This document shows, piece by piece, positions 21,077-48,251 of a stretch of DNA of 54,378 nt. A model generated the notes under the pieces. The model saw nothing but the letters and a program-made list of their open reading frames with translations, had not been told where the DNA came from and searched no databases. The stretch comes from Pirellulales bacterium. GTDB lineage: Bacteria > Planctomycetota > Planctomycetia > Pirellulales > JADZDJ01. The DNA lies in contig JADZDJ010000160.1 in the NCBI GenBank assembly GCA_020851115.1, positions 1-54,378 on the forward strand, read 5' to 3'. How positions within the stretch are numbered: position 1 is the stretch's first letter; each line of letters starts with the position of its first letter. A program made the translations under genes and the position numbers.

Positions 21077-23488
21077 ATGCCGATGACTCCGCCCACCGAA
21101 ACCCTGCTGGGGCGCTCCACTGCGCCGCTGGGGCTGCGTATTCGCGGCACCGACCGGGATGGTCAAGTCGTGTGGTTGAATTCCTTGAAAGTAACCATTG
21201 GTTCAGGCAGCAGCAGCACATTGCGACTTCGTGCGCCGGGTGTAGCGCCTGTGCATTGCATGATCCTTCGCGGCCGCGAGCAGACCATTGCGCGCTGCTG
21301 GTCGCCCGATACGCGCTGCAACGGCCGGGCGTTCAAGGACGCGAGGCTGTCAACCGGCGATCGACTTGGCATCGGTCCGCTGGAACTCGAAGTGGTCGCA
21401 CACTCGGAAGGAGGAACACGGAACTCGGAAGCTGCCAACGAGTCCGGCAGAAACAGTGGTCGCCCGATCGACCGGTCCGCGCCGCTGTCAGAATCTGCTG
21501 CGGACGCAACCATGCAAGATCCGCAGATCGTGAAGGCGTTGAACAACATCCGGCGGCTTGGCGTCCGCCTGAGGGCGAGTCGTCGCCAGTCGCGAAGGCG
21601 TATTGAAAAACTGACGGAAGAACTGCGAGCGGCACGTCTTCGGGCCGGCGATTTGGAAAGCCAGATTGCCGCACATCGAAAGCAATCTGCCGCCAATGAA
21701 TCGCACCAGTTCCAGTGGGAGCAGCAACGGCAAGCGATCGACGCCGAGCGCAAGCAATGGCTGCAAACTCAATCTCACATCGAGCAATTACTGGCCGACC
21801 TGGAGCGACGGAGCGAAGCAGCGACCGTTGTCGCGTCGGTGCAAGCGACGCCATCGGTGCCGACCGAGGCCGCGCGCGACATAGAACGGGAAATCGCCGA
21901 CCTGCGCAATCAGCTTGAGACCGAACGCAACGAGTGGGAAGCGCAACGAGCCGTATGGGAAGAGAAACTTGTCAAGCGCGAAGCCTCGCTGCAAGAGGAA
22001 TCGAGTCAATTGCAACAATTGCAGACCAACATCCAGGGCGAACGGTCGGCACTCGAAGCGCAAGTCGCATCTCTCGACGAAGGCAAAAAGCAACTTGAAT
22101 CGCGCGGTAACGACATCACGCAGAGCCAAGAGACACTGGACGAACAGCGGCGAGTTCTGCGGGCCGAAGTCGAAAAGCTCGATCGAGAGCGATCTCAATT
22201 TGCAACCGAGTGCGAAACATTTGGAAAGGATCGCGTCGAATTCGAGCAAAGTCGCCAAGAATTGATAGGATCGATGGAAAAACTGAAAGCACGGCAATCG
22301 GAGTTGGATGCCAAGAGCCAAGTACTCGAAGATCAACGCCGCGAAATCGACGCCGAACGGGATGAAATTCACCAAATTGCCGAGCAGCGTCAGAAGATAG
22401 CTGAAGAGTTGCAAGCACTGAATGCGGGTAAGGAGGAATTGGAGCGCCAACAGCAGGAACTAGCTGAAACGCAGCGAGATATTGCGCTAGCCCGCGAAGA
22501 ATTGCTGCAATCCAAACAAGCCTGGGAAGCGGAGGTTGTTCACCACGAGTCGCCCACCGGTCAACCGCGACAAATCGTCTTACCCAGCCACTTCGCGCCA
22601 GACGCGCAAACGGAGCATTCTGAGGCGACGGCCTCTGCCGATGAACGGGTGCCGGTCGAACCGGATGAAGAGCAAGACGGCGCGGCAGCACCCAATTCGC
22701 CAGGAAGTGAGCCAACAAGCACCAATCCAATTCCTGAAAACTCCGATGAGGTTTTTTCTCGGCTGCGCGCTCTCGACCTGCTCAAGAGCGACGAAGTAAC
22801 GAGGACACAGGAGACACCTGCGGTGGAGGCAGCCGGCGAATCCAAAACGATTGAGGATTCGGCCGAGAATTTGCCAAACCCACGACGGGCGTCGAATTCG
22901 GCCGTCGAGGCCTCGGAATCGGAAGACGAAGATTCAATCGAGTCGTACATGGCTCGACTGTTGCAGCGCGTCGGTAAAGGAGTCGCCGGGAATCCACCTT
23001 TAACTACAACTGCCGCGCAAGGAGCCAAGCCGAAAGCTGCCGCAATGGCTGCCCTTGCGAGCGAGGCTTCGACGGAACCTGCTGCCCTGACCGATTCGCC
23101 GATGCGAACGCTTAGCGAGCTTGAGCCGCGTTCCGCCGCTCCAGAAAAGAGTCGCGATTTAGCGGCGATGCGGGAGATTGCCAATTTCACTGCCCGCACT
23201 GCCATCGCCAAGCACGTTTGGCGAACCAGGATTGCGATGCTGCTGAAACGCTTTGCGATGGGCATCGTCGCGCTTGTCTGCGGATTGATCTTGATCGTGC
23301 TTGCTCCATCAGCGTCATCACACTATTTTCTATACGGATTGACGGCGATCACCGCAGCGATCCTTTGGTTTTTACCTTCCCTCTACCGGGCAAAAAAGTG
23401 CGAGCATCAAGCAAAATCTGCCCAGCAGGAAGCCATGGATAACTACGAAAAATCACCCATTACAGCCAACCCGCCTGAACCGCGATGA
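21077..23488 (+). CDS. FHA-domain protein with long coiled coil and C-terminal membrane hairpin
   Basis: An 803-residue protein. Residues about 15-110 look like a forkhead-associated domain (VTIGSGSSSTLRLRAPGVAP, VHCMILRG, NGRAFKDARLSTGDRLGIGP), which binds phosphothreonine peptides. Residues about 145-480 are a nearly uninterrupted Glu/Gln/Arg/Leu coiled coil. A low-complexity acidic and Ser/Ala-rich linker follows (about 480-700). Two hydrophobic helices at about 727-744 and 750-770 then form a membrane hairpin, leaving a short charged tail. It may be a membrane-tethered cytoplasmic scaffold. No kinase or phosphatase gene is adjacent. It converges with the isomerase gene, with four bases between the stops. 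The function is not known. Confidence 0.8.
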   Translation: MPMTPPTETLLGRSTAPLGLRIRGTDRDGQVVWLNSLKVTIGSGSSSTLRLRAPGVAPVHCMILRGREQTIARCWSPDTRCNGRAFKDARLSTGDRLGIGPLELEVVAHSEGGTRNSEAANESGRNSGRPIDRSAPLSESAADATMQDPQIVKALNNIRRLGVRLRASRRQSRRRIEKLTEELRAARLRAGDLESQIAAHRKQSAANESHQFQWEQQRQAIDAERKQWLQTQSHIEQLLADLERRSEAATVVASVQATPSVPTEAARDIEREIADLRNQLETERNEWEAQRAVWEEKLVKREASLQEESSQLQQLQTNIQGERSALEAQVASLDEGKKQLESRGNDITQSQETLDEQRRVLRAEVEKLDRERSQFATECETFGKDRVEFEQSRQELIGSMEKLKARQSELDAKSQVLEDQRREIDAERDEIHQIAEQRQKIAEELQALNAGKEELERQQQELAETQRDIALAREELLQSKQAWEAEVVHHESPTGQPRQIVLPSHFAPDAQTEHSEATASADERVPVEPDEEQDGAAAPNSPGSEPTSTNPIPENSDEVFSRLRALDLLKSDEVTRTQETPAVEAAGESKTIEDSAENLPNPRRASNSAVEASESEDEDSIESYMARLLQRVGKGVAGNPPLTTTAAQGAKPKAAAMAALASEASTEPAALTDSPMRTLSELEPRSAAPEKSRDLAAMREIANFTARTAIAKHVWRTRIAMLLKRFAMGIVALVCGLILIVLAPSASSHYFLYGLTAITAAILWFLPSLYRAKKCEHQAKSAQQEAMDNYEKSPITANPPEPR

Positions 23489-23492
23489 GCTA

Positions 23493-24512
23493 CTATCCAT
23501 TGCCGCGGGCGGCCAGCACGTCGTCATAATCTCGCAGATGATAGTGAAGGCCGGCCAGATCGAGCACCTTGCACAAGCTGCGGGCAGCGACGCCTAGACC
23601 ATCAGGGCCGCTAAAACCACCGAATTGGCCGCCACCTTTCAAATGCGGCTCCAGATCGAGGAACACTCCCGGAATGCCGCGGCGCTTGAGTTTCTTTTCC
23701 AACGTCGGAATATGATCGCGGAAGTCGCGCAGGATCAAGGCATGGGCCGTGTCGCCAACATCGGCAGGTACGAAGTTTTTGAGTGCTCCTTCATCGATGT
23801 GGCCCTGTCGGCGCGCGCCGCTGGGAGCTTTATAGTCTTTGATATGCATCCAACCAATGCCGGGCTTCATCGCCTGATATTGCTGAAACGCCTCGGCCTG
23901 TGTATATCCTTGGCAAATGATGTTACCACCGTCGAAAATGGTCACCAATGCCGGATGGTTCACTTGGCGGTGAATCTCGGCCATAATTTGCCCGTTTTGT
24001 CCGACGAGGTTGGCTTCAATTTCTAGTCCAAAGGTCAAGTCGGAACGATGACAAGTCTCGGCAATTTGTCCGAGGTGATCGGCGACTTGAGGAATGTGCT
24101 GCGCCGGATCTTCGCCGCGGGGCGGATAGAACGAAAAGCCGCGGATCAGCTTCGTTTCAAAAGCGTGAGCCAGCTCACAGGCGCGCTTTACGTCGGTGGC
24201 CAGATACTTCTTGAACGGAATATATGCGTTCTTAGTGCCGTCGGCTCGATCGACCAGCTTGATTTTCCCGATCGGCGAGCCAATCGACGCCACATTGAGT
24301 CCATATTCATCTTCCAAGTGGCGTATCTTCGTGATTTCGGCTTTGGAAAGCTTCATCACGTTCTTGATGCCGCTGCCGATGTCGATGAATCGAATGCTGT
24401 AATATTGAAGGCCAATCGCGGCCAGCGCGGCAAACTGCTGGGTAGCAGTTTTTTGATTGGCCGCCTCGTCGGCAAAGGCGCTTAGGATGACACGGGGTTG
24501 CTCGTCAGGCAT
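23493..24512 (-). CDS. Sugar phosphate isomerase/epimerase family TIM-barrel protein
   Basis: The start is set at ATG 24512 (MPDEQPRVILSAFADEAANQ), since the upstream extension to 24629 is not homologous in character; the product is 339 residues. It has the AP-endonuclease-2/xylose-isomerase-like barrel pattern with metal-ligand candidates in FGLEIEAN (Glu), VTIFDGGNIICQG (Asp), IGWMHIKDYK (His and Lys) and LDLEPHLKGGGQFGG (Glu). Family members isomerise or epimerise sugars and inositols using divalent metal. It is cytoplasmic as annotated, with no signal peptide. It is divergent from the ABC ATPase gene, and the two share a 179-base promoter region. Confidence 0.85.
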   Translation of the reverse strand: MPDEQPRVILSAFADEAANQKTATQQFAALAAIGLQYYSIRFIDIGSGIKNVMKLSKAEITKIRHLEDEYGLNVASIGSPIGKIKLVDRADGTKNAYIPFKKYLATDVKRACELAHAFETKLIRGFSFYPPRGEDPAQHIPQVADHLGQIAETCHRSDLTFGLEIEANLVGQNGQIMAEIHRQVNHPALVTIFDGGNIICQGYTQAEAFQQYQAMKPGIGWMHIKDYKAPSGARRQGHIDEGALKNFVPADVGDTAHALILRDFRDHIPTLEKKLKRRGIPGVFLDLEPHLKGGGQFGGFSGPDGLGVAARSLCKVLDLAGLHYHLRDYDDVLAARGNG

Positions 24513-38573: not shown

Positions 38574-39326
38574 TTAAGCCGCCGCCAGTTGTAGTGCCTG
38601 CGGCACTTCGCCGGTAATGCCTACGATCCATTCTTCGAAGATACGAATATCGATCGCCGACGCGCTTTCGGCTTCTGGATGGAATTGAGTGCCGAGCACC
38701 CACCAATCGCTGTCTTTGCTCTCGAACGACTCGATAACGCCGTCCGGCGAACGCGCACTGATGAGGAGGCCAGGGGCAAGTTCGTCGATGGCCATGTGAT
38801 GCATGCTGTTGACGCGAATTTCTCCCTCGCCGAAGACTCGCTCCATCAGCGTGCCGGGAACAACTTCCAACCCGTGGCGATGCGCAGGGTCGAGCGAGTC
38901 GAAATGCGGGATCGCTTTCGGCAGATCTTCCGGGAGGTGCAGAAACAGATTGCCGCCGAGCGTGAGGTTGAGTAATTGCATTCCCGATCCAATGCCGAAC
39001 ACCGGAATACGGCGTTTGGCAACCAGTCGGGTCAGCAAGCGGTCGAATTGCTCTCGCCGACTGTTGACCAGCCGGGCGCTGGGGTGCAACATGAAACCGT
39101 CATTTCGCGGGTCGAGATCGGCTCCGCCGACCAGCACCACGCCGTCGAGTTGGTCCAAGATTTGATTTGTATCGTCCGCGTCGGCCTGCGGCGGCAAGAT
39201 CACGGGGATGCCACCCACGGCTTGAATACAGTCGTAGTAGCCGGCGGCGAGGTACGTAAACGCCGGCGAATCTTTCTTGGCGGAACGGTAATCGGCATTC
39301 AATCCAATCAATGGCTTCTTACGCAT
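38574..39326 (-). CDS. Class I glutamine amidotransferase-like (PuuD-type) protein lacking the Cys nucleophile
   Basis: A 250-residue protein starting MRKKPLIGLNADYRS, preceded by a very good ribosome-binding site (AAGGAGG about six bases before the ATG), so this start is firm even though the frame extends upstream. It matches the gamma-glutamyl-GABA hydrolase group: GVVLVGGADLDPRNDG, FGIGSGMQLLNLTLGGNLFL, GTQFHPEAE. The nucleophile elbow is normally GxCxG; here it reads GIGSG, with Gly113 at the Cys position (codon 38988-38990). The His216-Pro-Glu218 pair remains. Hydrolysis by the usual mechanism is therefore unlikely. The function is unknown; a binding or structural role is possible. Confidence 0.85.
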   Translation of the reverse strand: MRKKPLIGLNADYRSAKKDSPAFTYLAAGYYDCIQAVGGIPVILPPQADADDTNQILDQLDGVVLVGGADLDPRNDGFMLHPSARLVNSRREQFDRLLTRLVAKRRIPVFGIGSGMQLLNLTLGGNLFLHLPEDLPKAIPHFDSLDPAHRHGLEVVPGTLMERVFGEGEIRVNSMHHMAIDELAPGLLISARSPDGVIESFESKDSDWWVLGTQFHPEAESASAIDIRIFEEWIVGITGEVPQALQLAAA

Positions 39327-40099
39327 TGGGTTCCTCCTTGCGACACATCTTGTGTCCGTAAAAAAATGAATGGAAACGACCCTTGGAGGCACACTCGTGC
39401 TCTGGCGCTGTTCGGGAAACAAAATCGCAACCAGCAAGCAATGGCTTTCATCTTTCCGGAGAGATACCGGCGAAGACTTCGCAACAAGTGAAACTCGTGC
39501 GTCGTCCCTAACGCATCGGTGTACTCTGGGATGAGTGGTTGGCGACTCGCATCCGTTCTGGGCACTACGCCAGAGGGATTTCCTTATCCTGTGGGCCTCG
39601 TAAACTTTTCCTCCTTGAAACGTCGGCATCGCGGATCTTCGCAAAGTTCGGTCAGGCTACCGGCTGAAAATCCACTTCAGCCAACGCCCCGCCGATCGAC
39701 CTTGCATTCTGCGGCACCGCAATTGCAAACCTTCCGACCAGGTCATCAGGCCAGAGTTGCAAGTTCGAGCGAATGTATCCGCCGGAAAATAAAGTGCAAG
39801 TATTTCCGGCATTTTGCGGCCTTCTCGAGCCACAACCGCTAGATCGTGTGCTAGCATCGCCACGAGCGTCGGGGTTGAGCAATCGAGGTGCCCCAACGCC
39901 CTACCCGGCGGCTTCATCGTTCCAACAACTTCGCTAGAATTTTAAGTTCCAAATGCTTGTGACTTGATGAACTGCGTATCGTAGCGGTAGCTGCCGGCCG
40001 CGGAAAAACGTAAAAATCGTCCGGATTCGTCGGCGATTGAAGATCTCGATAACGATAAATTCCAGTTGCCAACTCCCCAATTCTCCGGTTTCTGCCCCT
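39327..40099. other. Gene-poor divergent region, nothing recognised
   Basis: About 770 bases between the amidotransferase-like gene (minus) and the OleA-like gene (plus). Several overlapping open frames exist on both strands, but none has a recognisable motif or a plausible composition. The promoter of the OleA-like gene should lie near its right end. Confidence 0.4.
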
Positions 40100-41179
40100 A
40101 TGGTTTACAACCACGTCTGCCTCGAATCGCTCGCCTATACGCTGCCGGAGGAAATTGTTTCATCCGACGAATTGGAATGCCGTTTGGAGCCGCTCTATTC
40201 GCGGCTGCGGTTGCCGATGGGGCGCTTGGAGTTGATGACGGGCATTCGCGAGCGCCGATTTTGGAAGCCCGGAACGATGCCCAGCGAGATCAGCGTCGTC
40301 TCGGCTCGTCGCGCGCTGGAAGCCGCAGAAATCGACCGGCACGAGATTGGGGCGCTGATTCACGGATCGGTGTGTCGTGATTTCTTGGAGCCAGCGACCT
40401 CCTGCGGCGTACACCATCGGTTGGAGTTGCCGCGCGGTTGCGCCACTTACGATGTTTCCAATGCGTGCTTGGGAGTACTGAATGGCATGGTGCAAGTCGC
40501 GAACATGATCGAGTTAGGGCAAATTCGCGCAGGCCTGGTCGTCGGCACTGAAGGCAGTCGAGAATTGATTGCAACGACGATCGAAATGCTCAACGCCAAT
40601 CAGTCGTTGACGCGCGAATCGGTGAAGCCCGCGATGGCGTCGCTTACGATCGGTTCTGCAAGCGCCGCCGCGTTGCTCGTCCATCGCGACCTCAGCCGTA
40701 CGGGCAATCGCCTGCTGTCGGCAACGATCCGTTGTAATTCCGCCGGTCACGAACTCTGTCACAGCGGCCGCGATGAAGCTGCCGTCGGCGGAATGAAGCC
40801 CACCATGCAGACGGATGCCGAAACGCTGATGCACGAGGGAGTGGCGATTGGCCGCGAGACTTTCGACCACTTCTTGACCGAACTGGGCTGGTCGATCAGC
40901 GATATTAACAAAACGGCCTGTCATCAGGTTGGGGCGCCGCAGCGCAAACTGATGCTGGAAACCTTTGGCATCAACCCCGCCATCGATTTTATTACCTTTC
41001 CGTGGCTTGGCAACACAGGCGCTGCAGCCATGCCAACGACACTGGCCGTCGGCATCGAACGCGGCCATTATCAGTCCAGCGATCGAGTCGCCCTACTGGG
41101 CATCGGTTCGGGAATCAATGTCTTGATGCTTGCGCTGGAACTAAATAAGCTCGCGGTCGCAGGCGGAGCGATCGAGTAA
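40100..41179 (+). CDS. FabH/OleA-like thiolase-fold 3-ketoacyl synthase
   Basis: A 359-residue condensing enzyme starting MVYNHVCLESLAYTLPEEIV. The catalytic triad of the FabH superfamily is present: Cys123 in DVSNACLGVLNGM, His275 in ACHQVGAP and Asn305 in WLGNTGAAAMP. The segment SVCRDFLEPATS places a Glu at residue 97, which matches from memory the extra catalytic Glu that OleA uses for head-to-head Claisen condensation of two acyl-CoAs; FabH lacks it. DRVALLGIGSGINVLM near the end also resembles OleA. An automatic annotation would probably call it 3-oxoacyl-ACP synthase III. No oleB, oleC or oleD gene is in the window. The gene faces the fatty-acid-type cluster across a Uma2 gene. Confidence 0.85.
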   Translation: MVYNHVCLESLAYTLPEEIVSSDELECRLEPLYSRLRLPMGRLELMTGIRERRFWKPGTMPSEISVVSARRALEAAEIDRHEIGALIHGSVCRDFLEPATSCGVHHRLELPRGCATYDVSNACLGVLNGMVQVANMIELGQIRAGLVVGTEGSRELIATTIEMLNANQSLTRESVKPAMASLTIGSASAAALLVHRDLSRTGNRLLSATIRCNSAGHELCHSGRDEAAVGGMKPTMQTDAETLMHEGVAIGRETFDHFLTELGWSISDINKTACHQVGAPQRKLMLETFGINPAIDFITFPWLGNTGAAAMPTTLAVGIERGHYQSSDRVALLGIGSGINVLMLALELNKLAVAGGAIE

Positions 41180-41264: not shown

Positions 41265-41903
41265 ATGGCAATAACATCCGAAGCTGGACGAAGAGTCTTG
41301 ATGACGCTTAACAATTGGCCCGATGATTTGCCGCCGCCATTTCCCATCGAACGACTTACGGTCGAAGAATATCAACGCATCGTGGCGTCGGGATCGTTGA
41401 AACCGGAGAGGCGCGTCGAGTTCCTGGAAGACGTGATCGTTCGCAAGGCTCGTACCAGCTTGCGGCATGATGCGGCCGTTGAAAAGCTGCTCGAATCGCT
41501 GCGGCCGCTGTTGCCGCAGGGATGGAGCGCGCTGCCCAATGGTGAGGTTGTCATGCAGGACAGTCAACCCATACCAGACGTGGTCGTTGTCAGCGACATC
41601 CTCAACGATCGACCCCTCGCACTTCCTCGAGCGGCGGAAACATCGTTGGTGGTTGAAGTTGCCGACGGCTCATTACCTTTCGACCGTCGCAGCAAAGCGC
41701 GAATCTACGCCCGCGCGGCAATTCCTTATTATTGGATCTTGAACTTGCTCGATGGCCAGATGGAAGTGTTCAGCAATCCAAGCGGCCCGGTCCCCATGCC
41801 CGGTTTTCACGAACAGCGTATCTATCGTCGTGAGGACAAGGTGAGCGTTGTCATCGGACTGGATGACTTCGGTGCGATTCGAGTCGCCGATTTGCTACCC
41901 TAG
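41265..41903 (+). CDS. Uma2-family (DUF820) putative endonuclease
   Basis: A 212-residue protein with the restriction-endonuclease-like pattern of Uma2: LTVEEYQRIVASG, RRVEFLEDVIV, PIPDVVVVSDI, SLVVEVADGSLPFDRRSKAR and YARAAIPYYWILNLLDGQME. The PD-(D/E)xK-type residues (Asp in PDVV, Glu in VEVAD, Lys of RRSKAR) are present. These proteins are abundant in cyanobacteria and planctomycetes; their role is undetermined. ATG 41301 is an alternative start. It follows the OleA-like gene by 85 bases on the same strand, and its 3' end faces fabI. Confidence 0.9.
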   Translation: MAITSEAGRRVLMTLNNWPDDLPPPFPIERLTVEEYQRIVASGSLKPERRVEFLEDVIVRKARTSLRHDAAVEKLLESLRPLLPQGWSALPNGEVVMQDSQPIPDVVVVSDILNDRPLALPRAAETSLVVEVADGSLPFDRRSKARIYARAAIPYYWILNLLDGQMEVFSNPSGPVPMPGFHEQRIYRREDKVSVVIGLDDFGAIRVADLLP

Positions 41904-42056: not shown

Positions 42057-42878
42057 TTATTCGCGGATCGCTCGGCGAATCAGGTCGCGGTCGAAATAAT
42101 TCACGCTCATTCCAGCATCCACGACGATCTGCTGAGCATTGATGCCGCTGGAACGAGGGCTGAGCAGAAACGCCGCGGCATTGGCGGCTTCATCGGTCTT
42201 GACGGCCTCCTTTCTCAGCGTGACTTGCTCGGCATAGAGATAGGCGTCGACATAGCCCGGTATGCCCGCGGACGACGCCGTTTTCAGCAGCCCCGGCGAG
42301 ACGGCATTGAATCGCACGCGCGAAAACTTGCTGAACGATTTCGCCAGGAATGCGAGCGACGAATCGAGGGCGGCCTTGATCGGGGCCATATAGCCGTAGT
42401 TTTCCGCGGCCATCCGCGTCGTGGAGATCGAAACAGCCACCACGGACGCGTCGGGATCGAAAACTTCTCGGAAGCAATTCGACAGCGACATCAGCGAATA
42501 ACACGAAACGTCGGCCGCGCGTAAAAATGTTGCCTTGGGAGTTTCGTGGAAAGGCTTCAAGCCGGACGTGGGATCCGCCAGGGCCGCAAAGTCGGCCGAA
42601 GCGATGCTGTGCAGCAGGCCGTGCAATGTTGGCCGCATTTCAGCGACCTGATCGCGGAGCCGAGCAATTTGATCTTCGCGTTCGACATCGCACATCAAAA
42701 CTGGTGCATTGCCAACCAGCGGCAGAACCTTGTCTCGGCGAGAGTCGCTGCGAACTGAATAAATCACGTCGGCGCCGTGTTTTGTCAGCACTTGGCCGAC
42801 ATGAAATGCGATGCTCTTGCGATTGGAAACGCCGAGCACCAGAAACGTCTTGCCGGCGAGTTGTAGAAAGTCAGTCAT
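42057..42878 (-). CDS. fabI: Enoyl-[acyl-carrier-protein] reductase (FabI type)
   Basis: A 273-residue SDR enzyme starting [20 protein letters not shown] at 42878. The nucleotide-binding loop [14 protein letters not shown] and the catalytic Tyr161-x6-Lys168 (YGYMAPIK) match FabI spacing; [18 protein letters not shown] closes the fold. It reduces the enoyl-ACP double bond in the last step of the elongation cycle. It is the last gene of the minus-strand run FabF-ACP-two CrtI-like-FabZ-FabI, 68 bases after the dehydratase. Whether this is the housekeeping enzyme or one dedicated to the cluster cannot be told here. Confidence 0.9.
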
Positions 42879-42946
42879 CAATCCAGTTTCACCAAAGTTG
42901 CCGCCGCGAACCGACCAAGGATGCAACGGTCGAATCGGTTTGTGCC

Positions 42947-43498
42947 TTAGGTTGCGCTCGGTTCGCGCGACCTACTGGCCAACATACAAGCGAAGTCGAA
43001 TCTGACAGCAAGTTTTCCGTCGCAAGTGACTTGGGCATCGAAGTAAAATGCGTCGGCCAGCTTTTCGCGGAGCTGCACGTCGATTTCAATCGTTTCGTCG
43101 GGGCGTATCGTGCGTTTGAATCGGACGTTGTTCATCCGCGTGACAACGGGTATCGTGTCGCTGCCATTGTTTCCGCGTCGCGACATCAAAACCGCGCCAG
43201 CCTGTAGGGCGGCTTCGCACAGCAACACGCCGGGCACGAGAGGGAATTCAGGGAAGTGGCCGGTAAAACACCAATTGTGCGCAACAAATGTCTTGCGACA
43301 AATAACTCGCTCGTCGGACTGTTCGATAATCTCATCAATCAGCAAAAATGGCTCTCGATGCGGAATTGCCGCACGGATTTCAGTAGTACTCATAGGCGTT
43401 GCATGTTGACTCGCCGCGTTGACGCCGGAATCCGATCGAGCACAACCCAATCGGTCGCCCTGCGCTGCCGCGCCTGGTTGGTTGGCGAAAGGGCTCAT
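42947..43498 (-). CDS. FabZ/FabA-type hotdog dehydratase
   Basis: A hotdog-fold protein. [15 protein letters not shown] opens the domain, and the catalytic segment [20 protein letters not shown] carries the His and Glu pair of FabZ (3-hydroxyacyl-ACP dehydratase). [14 protein letters not shown] is the usual third-strand motif. The ATG at 43498 overlaps the stop of the upstream CrtI-like gene in an ATGA, arguing for coupled translation, but ATG 43393 ([16 protein letters not shown], 148 residues) matches the normal FabZ start. It probably makes the enoyl-ACP that FabI or the CrtI-like enzymes act on. Confidence 0.9.
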
Positions 43499-44943
43499 TC
43501 CGTGGCCAGCGCCAATTGCGCACCCGGCGACTTCGTCAAGATGGCATCGACTTCATTGGCCACAATCACTCCATAATTCATCGCCCCCAGCCAGCCCGAC
43601 ATGATAATGCCCACGCTGCCGGCGTGATACAACCGCGACACTTGCTGCGGCAGCCCACGACTGATGGCCAACCCCTCAAATTTTGTGCCGAAACTGGCTC
43701 CGTTGGCGTGGCGAGTATAGTGTTCGAAAGTGCGCGGCGTGGACGCTTCGGCATGATCGCTGATGGTACGGATGTTGGGGACATACTTTTCGAGACATGC
43801 GAAGGTTGATTCGACGAGGTCGCGTTTTGCCAATTCGTAATCTTCATCGCCGAGAAATGCCCAATCCTCGTATCGCGCATTCGTGCTAGCCACAATAAAA
43901 CAGCGGTCGCAGTCTGGACGAAGCTCCGGATAGTAAAAAGAAAACTCCCGGCTGGTGATGTTCTTGCCGAGCAGCAAATCGGTGCGGAAGAGTGGCGCCG
44001 TCGAACTAAACAACAAATCGCCGCAGCGCTGGTCGATCATCTCTCCGGGTTTGATCGAGATATAAACCTGCGTGCTGGAACTGTTCAGCCGAATGGCACG
44101 GGCTTCGTCAACAAACGAAGGATCGAAATGCCGTTCACCGACCAAGCGAAAAATCGTCGACTTCAAATTCGCATTCGACACGACGGTGGCACACTTGATT
44201 TCTCGCCCGCCGACGCGAACGCCGGTGATTTGGCGGCGATGATTCACCAGGATACGTTCCACATCGCACTTAATGCGCACATCGACGCCGTTGCGTTCCA
44301 ACTCCTTGTGCATCAGCTTGATGAGTCGGTTAGTCCCGCCGCGGAAGGTATAGACTCCTTTCGACATGAAGTTTGAGAAGACGATGCCGTAGGTAATTGC
44401 CGGGTCTTCCAACGTCGATCCATTGGCATAGGCGATTGGCTCCATGAGCAGCCGAACGACATCCTCGCGGCCTGGAAAAAACCGTTCGAAGAGTTGGCCG
44501 ACTGTTGTTGATTGATCGTCGTAGAAATTCATGCCGCGAACGGCTTCGAAGAACGAAGCGACGGTTTCGGCGGGAACACGGAAATCTCGCGTTAGCAATC
44601 GGACAAAATCGTCGCGGTCGAACGAAGTCGTCAGCGCGAACATCGGGTTGTCGAAACTGAGCCGCTTGAGTTGGATAATCGAGTCGGCGATTTCCCGCGT
44701 CCAATATCGGCGGCAGCTCTTAATCATGCCTACGGGGAAACCGTGCAGCGAAATATCGAAGATCCGCCCGCGCGACCGGCGGAACCACGTCGCCATTCCG
44801 CCCAGCTTGTAGTGCTGTTCCAGCAGCAGCACCCGATGGCCGGCACGAGCCAGGGTATTCGCGCACGTCAGCCCCGCCAAACCACTGCCAATAACAATCG
44901 TGTCATACTCACAGGAAACGCCTTGGAGAAAGTCTTTCGGCAT
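43495..44943 (-). CDS. CrtI/phytoene-desaturase-like FAD-dependent oxidoreductase (second of two)
   Basis: A 482-residue flavoprotein. The N-terminal dinucleotide-binding motif is [20 protein letters not shown], followed by [17 protein letters not shown], typical of the phytoene desaturase/carotenoid isomerase/retinol saturase group. [20 protein letters not shown] is the second conserved block, and the C terminus [20 protein letters not shown] is the FAD-contacting end of that group. Members desaturate, saturate or isomerise polyene chains. It lies between another family member and FabZ in a fatty-acid-type operon with no carotenoid gene in the window, so an acyl chain is a more likely substrate than a carotenoid. 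Confidence 0.88.
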
Positions 44944-45076
44944 GGGGTTGACTTAAGCCGGTAGGGGGATGGCAAAAATGGAAATAAATCGATGGGCGAT
45001 GAACGGGCGCTCGATCGCGGTAAATTCGTTCGCGGTGAATCGTGGGTGCTCGTCTGGGGAATTGATCGAAGTGAAT

Positions 45077-46459
45077 TTAAGTTGCACGCAGTACTAGATT
45101 GGCCACTTGAATGCCGCTCGTAAGCGTGCCGACGATCCCAACGAAACCTTGGTCGGCGCCACAAACGAGCAGACCTTCGAGCGGAGTTTTCGCATCGTAC
45201 CTTTTTTGCGGCGCGCCGTACACGGCCCCACGATCGTGGCCAGTGTAGCGAACGATGGTCGTCGGGGTGAATGTGTCGTGAGCGATCATGTGATTGCGAA
45301 GATCGGGGATGAATTTAGCAGCGGCGACCAGTGTTTTTTCGTACCATTCGGCCTTCTGAGCCTGATATTCGTCGGGGCGAAGGGCCGACCAAGCTTGATA
45401 ATTCGCCAGCGCCGTGAGTCTCAGCCATCCTTCCGGCAACTGGGCGTCCCGGTAGCAAAAGTTGTTCGGCGTACAAATAATGCCGCTGCGTAGATCAACG
45501 AAGTCCTCTGGATTGGCATAATGAAAACGCTCGCTGTCGTTGTAAAACACGATCGTCTCGTTAAATCCAAGCTGCGTCGGCTGGCAATCGAGCGAACAAA
45601 TCGTTTCGACGAACGACAACTCTCCTGGCGTTTGGCGTGGCATTCGATCGGCCGGCAAATTGCATAGCCTCATCGTTTCATTCCAGCCTGCCGACGAAAG
45701 AATTTGCTTGGCATCGAGTTGTGTGCCGTCGTCAAGGATGACGCCGATTGCCTGCTGGTTGTCGCTGGCGATTTGCTTCACGCCGGATCGCAGTCGCAGT
45801 TGGCCACCTAGTTCTTTATACCGTCGAACAAGCTGTTTCAGAATCACGCGGATGCCGCCAAGCGGGCGCCCCAGACCTTCCAAGAAAATGGCGCGGAACA
45901 GCACGCTGAACTGACCAAATTCCATGTCGTGCTCGCGGGCATTGCCGTAGAACATCACCGGGCAGAGTAGCATTTCCACGAGTAGCGGCTCGGAGATGAT
46001 GGAGGACAAAATTTCGCGAGTCGATGCGGCAGCCCGCGGCGCCATCAATTCGTCGTAGTCGAGAATCTCGCCGAGCAACCGCTCGTAATGGTCAAGCTGC
46101 GTGGGAAAAGCGCGTGCTATTTCTGCCTTTAGCAGGGCTGGATCGTTATGGAACCGTAGCTGAACGTCGGGAAAAACGATGACCGATCCTTGCTGCTGGG
46201 CCAGGGCAAAATCATCCCATTTCAGCCGAAGCTGCCGCAACAGCCGCGGCAGGGGGCCTTGCTTCGCGTCGCGCGCAGCATAATTTGTGACGGCGTGCAA
46301 GCCAACGTCGTAGTTGCGATCGTTCAGCCGATAGTACGAATTCAGCCCGCCGATCGCATAGTGCCGTTCGAGAATGCAGACCGACTGGCCAAACATCGCC
46401 AATCGGATGCCTGCGGCAAGTCCCGACATGCCGGCACCAATGATGATCGAGTCGTACAT
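45077..46459 (-). CDS. CrtI/phytoene-desaturase-like FAD-dependent oxidoreductase (first of two)
   Basis: The frame begins at 46504; ATG 46459 (MYDSIIIGAGMSGLAAGIRL) puts the FAD motif at the very N terminus, as usual, giving 460 residues. VCILERHYAIGGLNSYYRL follows. FLEGLGRPLGGIRVILKQLV matches the second conserved block, and LLVCGADQGFVGIVGTLTSG the C-terminal FAD contact. It differs clearly from its neighbour along most of its length, so the two are not a recent duplication and probably do different steps or form a heteromer. It lies 133 bases upstream of the second copy and follows the ACP gene by about 100 bases. Confidence 0.88.
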   Translation of the reverse strand: MYDSIIIGAGMSGLAAGIRLAMFGQSVCILERHYAIGGLNSYYRLNDRNYDVGLHAVTNYAARDAKQGPLPRLLRQLRLKWDDFALAQQQGSVIVFPDVQLRFHNDPALLKAEIARAFPTQLDHYERLLGEILDYDELMAPRAAASTREILSSIISEPLLVEMLLCPVMFYGNAREHDMEFGQFSVLFRAIFLEGLGRPLGGIRVILKQLVRRYKELGGQLRLRSGVKQIASDNQQAIGVILDDGTQLDAKQILSSAGWNETMRLCNLPADRMPRQTPGELSFVETICSLDCQPTQLGFNETIVFYNDSERFHYANPEDFVDLRSGIICTPNNFCYRDAQLPEGWLRLTALANYQAWSALRPDEYQAQKAEWYEKTLVAAAKFIPDLRNHMIAHDTFTPTTIVRYTGHDRGAVYGAPQKRYDAKTPLEGLLVCGADQGFVGIVGTLTSGIQVANLVLRAT

Positions 46460-46564
46460 GGCAGCGTTGAATCGCTCGGGAGTCGGCATCAAAGCCGCCG
46501 ACACTTAAAGAAAGCCCTTGGCTGCGTCGATTCCCGCCTTTGCTGTGTGTTCGATCAACGGTGC

Positions 46565-46825
46565 TCAGGCTTGCTGCAAATCGCGCATGAGTGGTTCGAG
46601 ATACTTTACCGTGCCTGAAAGCGTGGCAAGATGGATGTAGTCGTCCTCGGGGATTTGAATGCGATGCCGCTTGCGCAGTTCCATCACAATGTCGAGAAAA
46701 TCCATGCTATCAAGTTCGATTTGCTCGCGCAGCGGCTTGTTGTCGTCGAGGCTCGACAAATCTTCATCAGGCACGATGTCTGATAGAATATCAATGATTT
46801 CGTCGCGTATTTCAGGGGAATTCAT
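46565..46825 (-). CDS. Acyl carrier protein
   Basis: An 86-residue acidic helical protein. IELDSMDFLDIVMELRKRH contains the DSM/DSL phosphopantetheine site with Ser40. The N terminus (MNSPEIRDEIIDILSDIVPD) and the total length fit ACPs, but the sequence after the serine is not that of a canonical AcpP (for example MDFLDIVM rather than LDTVELVM), which suggests a specialised carrier for this cluster. It sits between FabF and the first CrtI-like gene, all on the minus strand. Confidence 0.93.
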   Translation of the reverse strand: MNSPEIRDEIIDILSDIVPDEDLSSLDDNKPLREQIELDSMDFLDIVMELRKRHRIQIPEDDYIHLATLSGTVKYLEPLMRDLQQA

Positions 46826-47009
46826 GGGTCGCTCGTGATACTAAAAAAAGTTTACCGCGAAGTGTTTCTTGGTCAGTGATTGGTTGGCGTTTTTGAAATA
46901 ATCGTACCGGCCACTGGAAGCCATCGTTACGATCTGCGGTCAATGAATTCACAATTCTTCAAGATCGATTTCTATCACCACCGACAATGGACGACTGGCC
47001 ACGGACGAA

Positions 47010-48251
47010 TCACACCTTCTTGATAATTACCACCGAATTGATTCCAAGCATCCCGAAAGAATTGTTCAGAATCGTTCCGACGCGGTTTCGTTCTTGCGGA
47101 TCGCCGGCGACCAGTCCTTCAAGGAGGCATTCGGGATCGGGACGTTCGAGATTAATGGTCGAATGACACACCCCATCGTCGAAAGCCGAAATGTTTCCAG
47201 CCAATTCCAGTGCGCCAGCCGCCCCCATGGCGTGTCCAATGAAACTCTTCGTATTATTGAACCGCACTCGATCGCTGCCGCCGAACACTTTTCGGAGCGC
47301 TTCGCATTCTTGGACGTCGCCTGACATGGTGCCCGTGGCATGCGTGCTGACAATGTCTATTTCGTCGGCCGACATGCCGCAGCGCTTGAGGGCACTTTGA
47401 ACACACTCCGCTTGACGATCTGGATTTGGCATGACGAAATCGCTGGCATCGCTGTTGATCGCCCAACCGACGACTTCGCCATAAATCTTTGCCCCGCGGT
47501 CCACTGCGTCGCTCATTCGCTCGAGCACGTACAAGCAGCCCCCTTCGGCGACCACAATGCCATTGCGATCAGCATCAAACGGACGTGAGGCTTTGGTCGG
47601 GTCGTCGTGCGCGGCCAGCGCCCCCTGGGCTTTGAAACTCGCAAAAATGCCAAACGTATGTATACTCTCCGACACACCGCCCGCCAGCGCCACGTCGCAC
47701 TCGCCGAGCAGCAGCATCTGCGCGCCTTGAATCAGTCCCGCGTTTCCCGCCGCGCAGGCCGCTCCAATCGTGTAATGTGGTCCTGTGATGCCCAGATTCA
47801 GTGAAATTTCTCCCGCCGGATTGTTGGCGACTGTTCGTGGATTGTGGTGGTGCGACCAAAACTTCGTGTCGTAGTCGAATGATTTCAATTGAAAAATTTC
47901 GTTCTCGGTCTCAACATTGCCGTGTTCGGTAACACCGATGTAGATGCCAACCACCGATTTATCAATATTCGGCCAATCCAACCCCGAATCGACGATCGCT
48001 TCGTGGGCACAGTAAATCCCAATACTGCCGGCTCTTGTGCCGCGGCGGACCTCCTTTTTCTTTTGATGACGCAGTTCGTCGAAATCACACACACCGGCCA
48101 CGGTTTTTCCCACATAGCGAATATCGTAACTCCGCACTCCGCTACGGCCAGCCAGCAAATTGTGCCTGAATTCGCGCAAGGAATTCGCACCCGGCGCGGT
48201 CAACCCAACTCCAGTAATAACAATCCTTTGGGTATCGGACCGGGCAATCAT
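47010..48251 (-). CDS. fabF: Beta-ketoacyl-ACP synthase (FabF/KAS II type)
   Basis: A 413-residue thiolase-fold condensing enzyme. The catalytic Cys166 lies in YTIGAACAAGNAGLIQGA, the first His in VSTHATGTMSGD and the second in NNTKSFIGHAMGAAGALEL, so the Cys-His-His triad is complete and it is not a chain-length-factor type. FDADRNGIVVAEGGCLYVLE is also diagnostic. It elongates acyl-ACP with malonyl-ACP. It is the first gene of the minus-strand lipid cluster, with 480 bases of upstream sequence likely to hold the promoter, and 184 bases before the ACP gene. Confidence 0.93.
   Translation of the reverse strand: MIARSDTQRIVITGVGLTAPGANSLREFRHNLLAGRSGVRSYDIRYVGKTVAGVCDFDELRHQKKKEVRRGTRAGSIGIYCAHEAIVDSGLDWPNIDKSVVGIYIGVTEHGNVETENEIFQLKSFDYDTKFWSHHHNPRTVANNPAGEISLNLGITGPHYTIGAACAAGNAGLIQGAQMLLLGECDVALAGGVSESIHTFGIFASFKAQGALAAHDDPTKASRPFDADRNGIVVAEGGCLYVLERMSDAVDRGAKIYGEVVGWAINSDASDFVMPNPDRQAECVQSALKRCGMSADEIDIVSTHATGTMSGDVQECEALRKVFGGSDRVRFNNTKSFIGHAMGAAGALELAGNISAFDDGVCHSTINLERPDPECLLEGLVAGDPQERNRVGTILNNSFGMLGINSVVIIKKV

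Follow-up and report, generated by a model that had tools for sequence, protein, structure and literature searches.

A Pirellulales oleA gene faces a conserved type II cluster that may supply unsaturated acyl chains in place of a Pfa synthase

Some of the closest described systems pair the OleABCD pathway with a dedicated acyl synthase. In Shewanella, in Geobacter bemidjiensis and in the type I cluster of Gemmata (PMC3098273), this synthase is Pfa, and ole genes often accompany Pfa-like clusters (PMC3098273). OleA draws a 16:4 chain from the ACP domains of Pfa and, with OleBCD, yields a C31:9 hydrocarbon; Pfa with OleA gives a polyunsaturated ketone (PMC6463001). Desulfotalea makes C31:8 and C31:9 hydrocarbons and possesses FASII clusters containing phytoene-dehydrogenase-like genes but no Pfa, and such hydrocarbons are also cited for members of the Planctomycetes (PMC2649909). 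How bacteria devoid of Pfa make polyunsaturated hydrocarbons has been an open question since the Desulfotalea and, per PMC2649909, planctomycete finds.

The locus described here lies in a window of 54,378 nucleotides, the whole stretch of Pirellulales DNA that was analysed. Its condensing enzyme is homologous over nearly its full length to Xanthomonas campestris OleA (PDB 3row, 3fk5), with the same Glu, Cys, His and Asn at modest identity, and OleC, OleD and OleB-like genes likewise occur in the genome. Unlike the described OleABCD pathway, the oleA, oleB-like and oleCD genes occupy separate contigs, and oleA faces a KAS-ACP-CrtI-like cluster. In contrast to the multidomain PfaA-D proteins, this cluster comprises single-domain KAS, ACP, FabZ and FabI proteins plus two flavoproteins, with no PfaA match; in other planctomycetes, a Pfa synthase occupies the same genomic slot beside the ole genes. 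By gene content, the cluster can be likened to the FASII clusters of Desulfotalea psychrophila and Kuenenia, which combine type II genes with CrtI-like ones and lack Pfa (PMC2649909), but those clusters include radical-SAM genes and further members, none of which is seen in the window cluster.

The condensing enzyme and its key codons are as follows.

40100..41179, forward strand: oleA, thiolase-superfamily head-to-head acyl condensing enzyme (NF006720, PDB matches, aligned catalytic residues)
40388..40390, forward strand: GAG codon of Glu97, the OleA-type catalytic glutamate, equivalent to Glu117 of X. campestris OleA (sequence, 91-row alignment)
40466..40468, forward strand: codon of Cys123, the acyl-enzyme cysteine (sequence, 91-row alignment)

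The reading frame encodes 359 amino acids, and its start codon, the ATG at 40100, lines up with the first residue of Xanthomonas OleA. Glu97 sits in the segment SVCRDFLEPATS, next to Pro98, and in a 91-row alignment its column holds E in all 90 OleA-type rows, X. campestris OleA among them, and I in the FabH of the same genome. Together with Cys123, His275 and Asn305 it aligns with the Xanthomonas enzyme, and the GIGSGINVLM motif is present; an earlier sequence-only reading had named each of these elements correctly. The protein scores 425.6 bits on the curated OleA-type model NF006720/PRK09258, whose cut-off is 285, and the top twelve phmmer matches in the PDB are X. campestris OleA sequences (best E=6e-53, covering residues 1-343 of the window protein). 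In a tree of OleA and FabH proteins, the window OleA falls inside a 43-row clade of its class (support 100/97) and apart from FabH, with X. campestris OleA among the planctomycete OleAs; because the FabH branch is long, the exact root of the OleA tree is unsure. Orthologues, nearly always single-copy, are found in 227 of 296 genomes of the order. Given the NF006720 score, the PDB E-values and this distribution, the OleA observation is not a chance one. The same reading had proposed an OleA-like head-to-head synthase, and the model scores, the catalytic residues, the tree and the co-occurrence with OleB, OleC and OleD all support it. Judged from sequence, the window gene is a true oleA, ordinary as an OleA.

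The genome (5.2 Mb in 304 contigs, 98.8% complete) encodes one OleA and one ordinary FabH; the latter (contig C53) was considered as a second OleA and rejected, being 29% identical and an ordinary FabH. On the far side of oleA, a gamma-glutamyl-hydrolase-like glutamine amidotransferase (38574-39329) flanks the gene, as it does in about 25 of 40 loci of the order.

Facing oleA, on the reverse strand, six genes encoding FabI-, FabZ-, two CrtI-like, ACP and KAS II-like proteins span positions 42057-48251. CrtA and CrtB are labels adopted for this analysis.

41265..41903, forward strand: Uma2-family gene between oleA and fabI (PF05685)
42057..42881 (reading frame open to 42926), reverse strand: FabI-like enoyl-ACP reductase, a conserved cluster member (PF13561, 172 bits; Y-x6-K motif visible)
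42947..43399, reverse strand: FabZ-like 3-hydroxyacyl-ACP dehydratase (NF000582, 102.9 bits against a cut-off of 113; PF07977)
43495..44943, reverse strand: CrtA, CrtI/carotenoid-isomerase-like flavoprotein of its own subfamily (best model TIGR02730, 85.8 bits against a cut-off of 587)
45077..46459, reverse strand: CrtB, second CrtI/carotenoid-isomerase-like flavoprotein (TIGR02730, 87.1 bits against a cut-off of 587)
46565..46825, reverse strand: dedicated acyl carrier protein (PF00550; DSMD serine site)
47010..48251, reverse strand: KAS II-like ketosynthase, the cluster marker gene (FabF-like, 302.7 bits against a cut-off of 494; Cys-His-His motifs intact)

The best NCBIfam models for the FabI-like protein are FabI models, all below cut-off, and orthologues of the window KAS are 62-83% identical. 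Among the loci examined, only two of the same family (L032 and L033) share the placement of the Uma2 gene in the gap between oleA and fabI, which is probably an insertion outside the pathway.

The two flavoproteins adopt a fold of the amine-oxidase/carotenoid desaturase type, within which Foldseek cannot tell a desaturase from an isomerase. The AlphaFold model of CrtA (pLDDT 81) matches the carotenoid desaturase 4rep and amine oxidases, and the best matches of the CrtB model (pLDDT 85) are 4rep and the CrtI structure 4dgk. Neither protein passes any curated carotenoid desaturase or isomerase model, the best score being 87 bits against a cut-off of 587, and carotenoid models match all 21 CrtB relatives weakly (best E 3e-28). 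Orthologues of CrtA in named Pirellulales are 65-73% identical; in a scan of named genomes with CrtA, the best 80 matches are all planctomycete records, a result that is silent on Desulfotalea and Geobacter.

In neighbourhoods drawn from across the order, the genes of the facing cluster recur opposite oleA, and the cluster continues into oleD-oleC in many relatives. Three loci (L093, L120 and L213) present an extended array, mch - ATP-grasp - OleC - OleD - KAS - ACP - CrtB - CrtA - FabZ - FabI, facing OleA, and this looks like the ancestral arrangement; in L231, an OleB-like gene stands right behind FabI at the end of the array. Outside the class, the genes are found on one strand in the order OleA-OleB-OleC-OleD-KAS-ACP-CrtB in L193 and L196, the latter with CrtA as well, and as OleA-KAS-ACP-CrtB-CrtA in L192. 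In the window genome this array has been split, with oleC-oleD, mch and the ATP-grasp gene located on a different contig.

The sequence-only reading had regarded a separated oleA as unusual. Among 27 genomes of the order in which both oleA and oleC were located on one contig, they lie 2-23 kb apart in 13 and 0.15-5 Mb apart in 14; separation is therefore common in Pirellulales, and it looks derived from the linked arrangement. In many Pirellulales (e.g., L080, 10065-12046), oleC-oleD follow mch, the gene of methenyl-H4MPT cyclohydrolase, and an ATP-grasp gene of the RimK-like type, a stable link of C1 genes with ole genes.

OleA, OleB and OleC co-occur strongly across the order. The genomes compared here are for the most part drafts from related organisms. 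Of the 296 in the order, 227 encode OleA, 216 OleC, 221 an OleB-like protein and 203 the window KAS; OleA is shared with OleC in 209, with OleB in 216 and with KAS in 198. All four are present in 181 and none in 62. KAS occurs without OleA in five genomes, of 58-88% completeness. The converse, OleA without the window KAS, is seen in 29, of which 21 belong to a single family (f8) and three others (G034, G278 and G010) are reasonably complete; family f9 is represented among the 29 as well. The f8 genomes (e.g., G058, G099 and G103) encode a more divergent OleA (E about 1e-70), in most cases together with OleC and an OleB-like protein and without a window-type KAS; they possibly harbor a Pfa-type system inside the order. 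Contig scans also recover named relatives from the Pirellulales and other Planctomycetota, for example Bythopirellula, Botrimarina, Neorhodopirellula and Blastopirellula.

A sample of 149 genomes, evenly drawn from the phylum, sets this distribution against that of the Pfa synthase. It contains 54 genomes with OleA, 27 with the window KAS and 31 with a strong PfaA match, the line for the last (E<=1e-180) having been chosen after the results were known. KAS occurs only alongside OleA (27/27). The 54 OleA genomes divide into 27 with KAS, 25 with PfaA, none with both and two with neither (G298 and G409, the OleA match of G409 being weak). At the family level, ten are KAS-only, 15 Pfa-only and none mixed. 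Five KAS genomes show weaker PfaA matches of about 1e-80 to 1e-111, similar to those of other polyketide synthases, and the window's own genome has no match to PfaA (TIGR02813) at E<=1e-60. Strong PfaA-like matches without an OleA match are seen in G344, G360, G374, G401, G416 and G417. Three loci (L184, L189 and L197) carry genes of about 840-2300 amino acids beside oleABCD; those scanned, from L184 and L189, resemble PfaA and type I polyketide synthases, and the two long ones among them contain FabA-like dehydratase regions. In the tree, 21 OleAs of Pfa genomes form one clade (100/100), the G300 protein is placed with Xanthomonas OleA, and OleAs of the KAS type lie elsewhere. Since the Pfa-linked OleAs thus amount to one clade plus G300, there have been few independent switches between KAS and Pfa, and p-values such as 2e-13 for the exclusion therefore overstate the independent evidence.

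The computation shows to which families the proteins belong, that oleA, oleB-like, oleC and oleD genes are all present, that synteny is conserved and that the genes co-occur, with KAS and PfaA excluding each other; the substrate, the product, the hand-over from the ACP and the role of both flavoproteins are what we infer. As we picture the pathway, KAS, ACP, FabZ and FabI would extend and process a chain on the dedicated ACP, while CrtA and CrtB would introduce or move double bonds by oxygen-independent desaturation or isomerisation. Unsaturated, probably polyunsaturated, chains would then pass from the cluster ACP to OleA, which would condense two of them, head to head, to a beta-keto acid. 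OleD, OleC and an OleB-like protein, encoded elsewhere in the genome, would reduce, lactonise and decarboxylate this intermediate to a long internal olefin. The facing cluster would in this way do the job of the giant Pfa synthase in Shewanella, and probably also of that in other planctomycetes, the likely end product being a polyunsaturated hydrocarbon of the C31:9 kind. Because the cluster takes the place of the Pfa synthase across the phylum, it probably feeds the ole pathway with polyunsaturated chains. We consider it likely that a true oleA is served here by a dedicated, discrete type II acyl-ACP synthase supplying unsaturated chains, with OleBCD finishing the product to an olefin. The wider proposal, that KAS-ACP-CrtB-CrtA-FabZ-FabI constitutes a Pfa- and oxygen-independent polyunsaturated acyl-ACP synthase in which the flavoproteins set the double bonds, and that its coupling to OleA yields hydrocarbons of the C31:9 type in much of the Planctomycetota, we hold in even balance. 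The hydrocarbon reports for Desulfotalea and the Planctomycetes fit a C31:9-type product by analogy, without amounting to proof.

The principal alternative is that OleABCD draws on housekeeping chains to make a saturated or monounsaturated olefin and that the cluster is a mere neighbour engaged in another lipid or a pigment. Characterised OleA enzymes do take ordinary acyl-CoA (PMC7064751, PMC6463001), the nearest solved relatives of the flavoproteins include carotenoid desaturases, so that CrtA and CrtB could act on carotenoids instead, and OleA and the cluster lie apart in several genomes. Against it, the KAS keeps to OleA genomes throughout the phylum sample and excludes PfaA, the linkage to OleA recurs outside the class, and both flavoproteins score far below every carotenoid cut-off. 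We regard this explanation as unlikely, and favor the cluster as supplier of unsaturated chains to OleA.

None of oleB, oleC and oleD lies inside the window, so the sequence-only description of an oleA without oleBCD nearby holds for the window; it does not hold for the genome, where oleC-oleD and two oleB-like genes are found elsewhere. OleC on contig C115 (about 22042-23760) passes NF006754 with 657 bits against a cut-off of 478. It does not pass two narrow OleC models (549 against 900 and 499 against 850), and the SDR directly after it, whose two best models are both OleD (384 and 372 bits), lies below a cut-off of 580; these narrow cut-offs belong to Xanthomonas/Shewanella equivalog models. 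The two OleB-like alpha/beta hydrolases (C283, 44856-45776; C21, 4006-4932) share 55% identity, while at the threshold used almost every relative has a single such protein. Because no curated OleB model turned up in the model library used, these proteins were assigned by synteny: the C283 protein is 41-51% identical to genes situated between oleA and oleC in other planctomycetes. With oleA, the two oleB-like genes and oleC-oleD on four contigs, the Ole pathway thus looks complete but scattered, its OleB-like members resting on gene order. The same reading had tied a hydrocarbon role to oleBCD in relatives, and OleB-like, OleC and OleD genes are indeed present there.

A pathway stopping early, at a beta-lactone or ketone, would follow if the OleB-like genes encoded unrelated hydrolases. 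They are unlinked here and score below haloalkane dehalogenase models. Against this, OleB-like proteins accompany OleA in 216 of its 227 genomes in the order, their genes stand between oleA and oleC in L183, L184, L189, L193 and L196, and in G007 OleB and OleC share one frame (L108, 8469-11192; about 920 amino acids, an apparent OleB-OleC fusion), all of which makes an early stop very improbable. Two other sources of an OleB assignment were discarded. The extra gene between oleC and oleD in Pirellulaceae is not OleB but a zinc-ribbon or GYF-type protein, inserted there in many relatives (L069, 17652-18620; L096, 5822-7093; L113, 10611-11828), and plasmids, searched for oleABCD to provide OleB references, gave only actinobacterial OleC-type matches of 35-37%.

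That the window gene instead encodes a starter enzyme of FabH or pyrone-synthase type for the cluster it faces, a thought invited by that position and by its superfamily, we consider scarcely credible: it carries the catalytic Glu, fails the FabH (KAS III) model TIGR00747 (82.7 bits against 292.1), stands far from FabH, a remote outlier in the tree, and matches FabH-type and other families in the PDB only at E>=1e-17, with pyrone synthases, compared by phmmer and outside the tree, further behind (ketosynthase 4v2p, E=4e-5; CorB, E=3e-4; against 6e-53 for OleA).

The sequence-only reading had noticed that oleA faces a fatty-acid cluster but had missed that this cluster accompanies OleA across genomes, apparently in place of the Pfa synthase. 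This is the more interesting point, and the window OleA is notable as the visible end of the conserved type II cluster. In the literature searched, which took in few subscription papers, no description of OleA coupled to such a cluster was found. Surveys that require oleB, oleC or oleD beside oleA (PMC7158056; the high-confidence set of PMC7064751) would miss many such genomes. For the problem of polyunsaturated hydrocarbons in bacteria lacking Pfa, the six-gene set, which in the phylum sample never occurs without OleA and excludes PfaA, offers a direct and testable candidate. If the proposal is true, it would constitute a second bacterial route to polyunsaturated chains, built from small, discrete enzymes that lend themselves to study and engineering more readily than a giant synthase.
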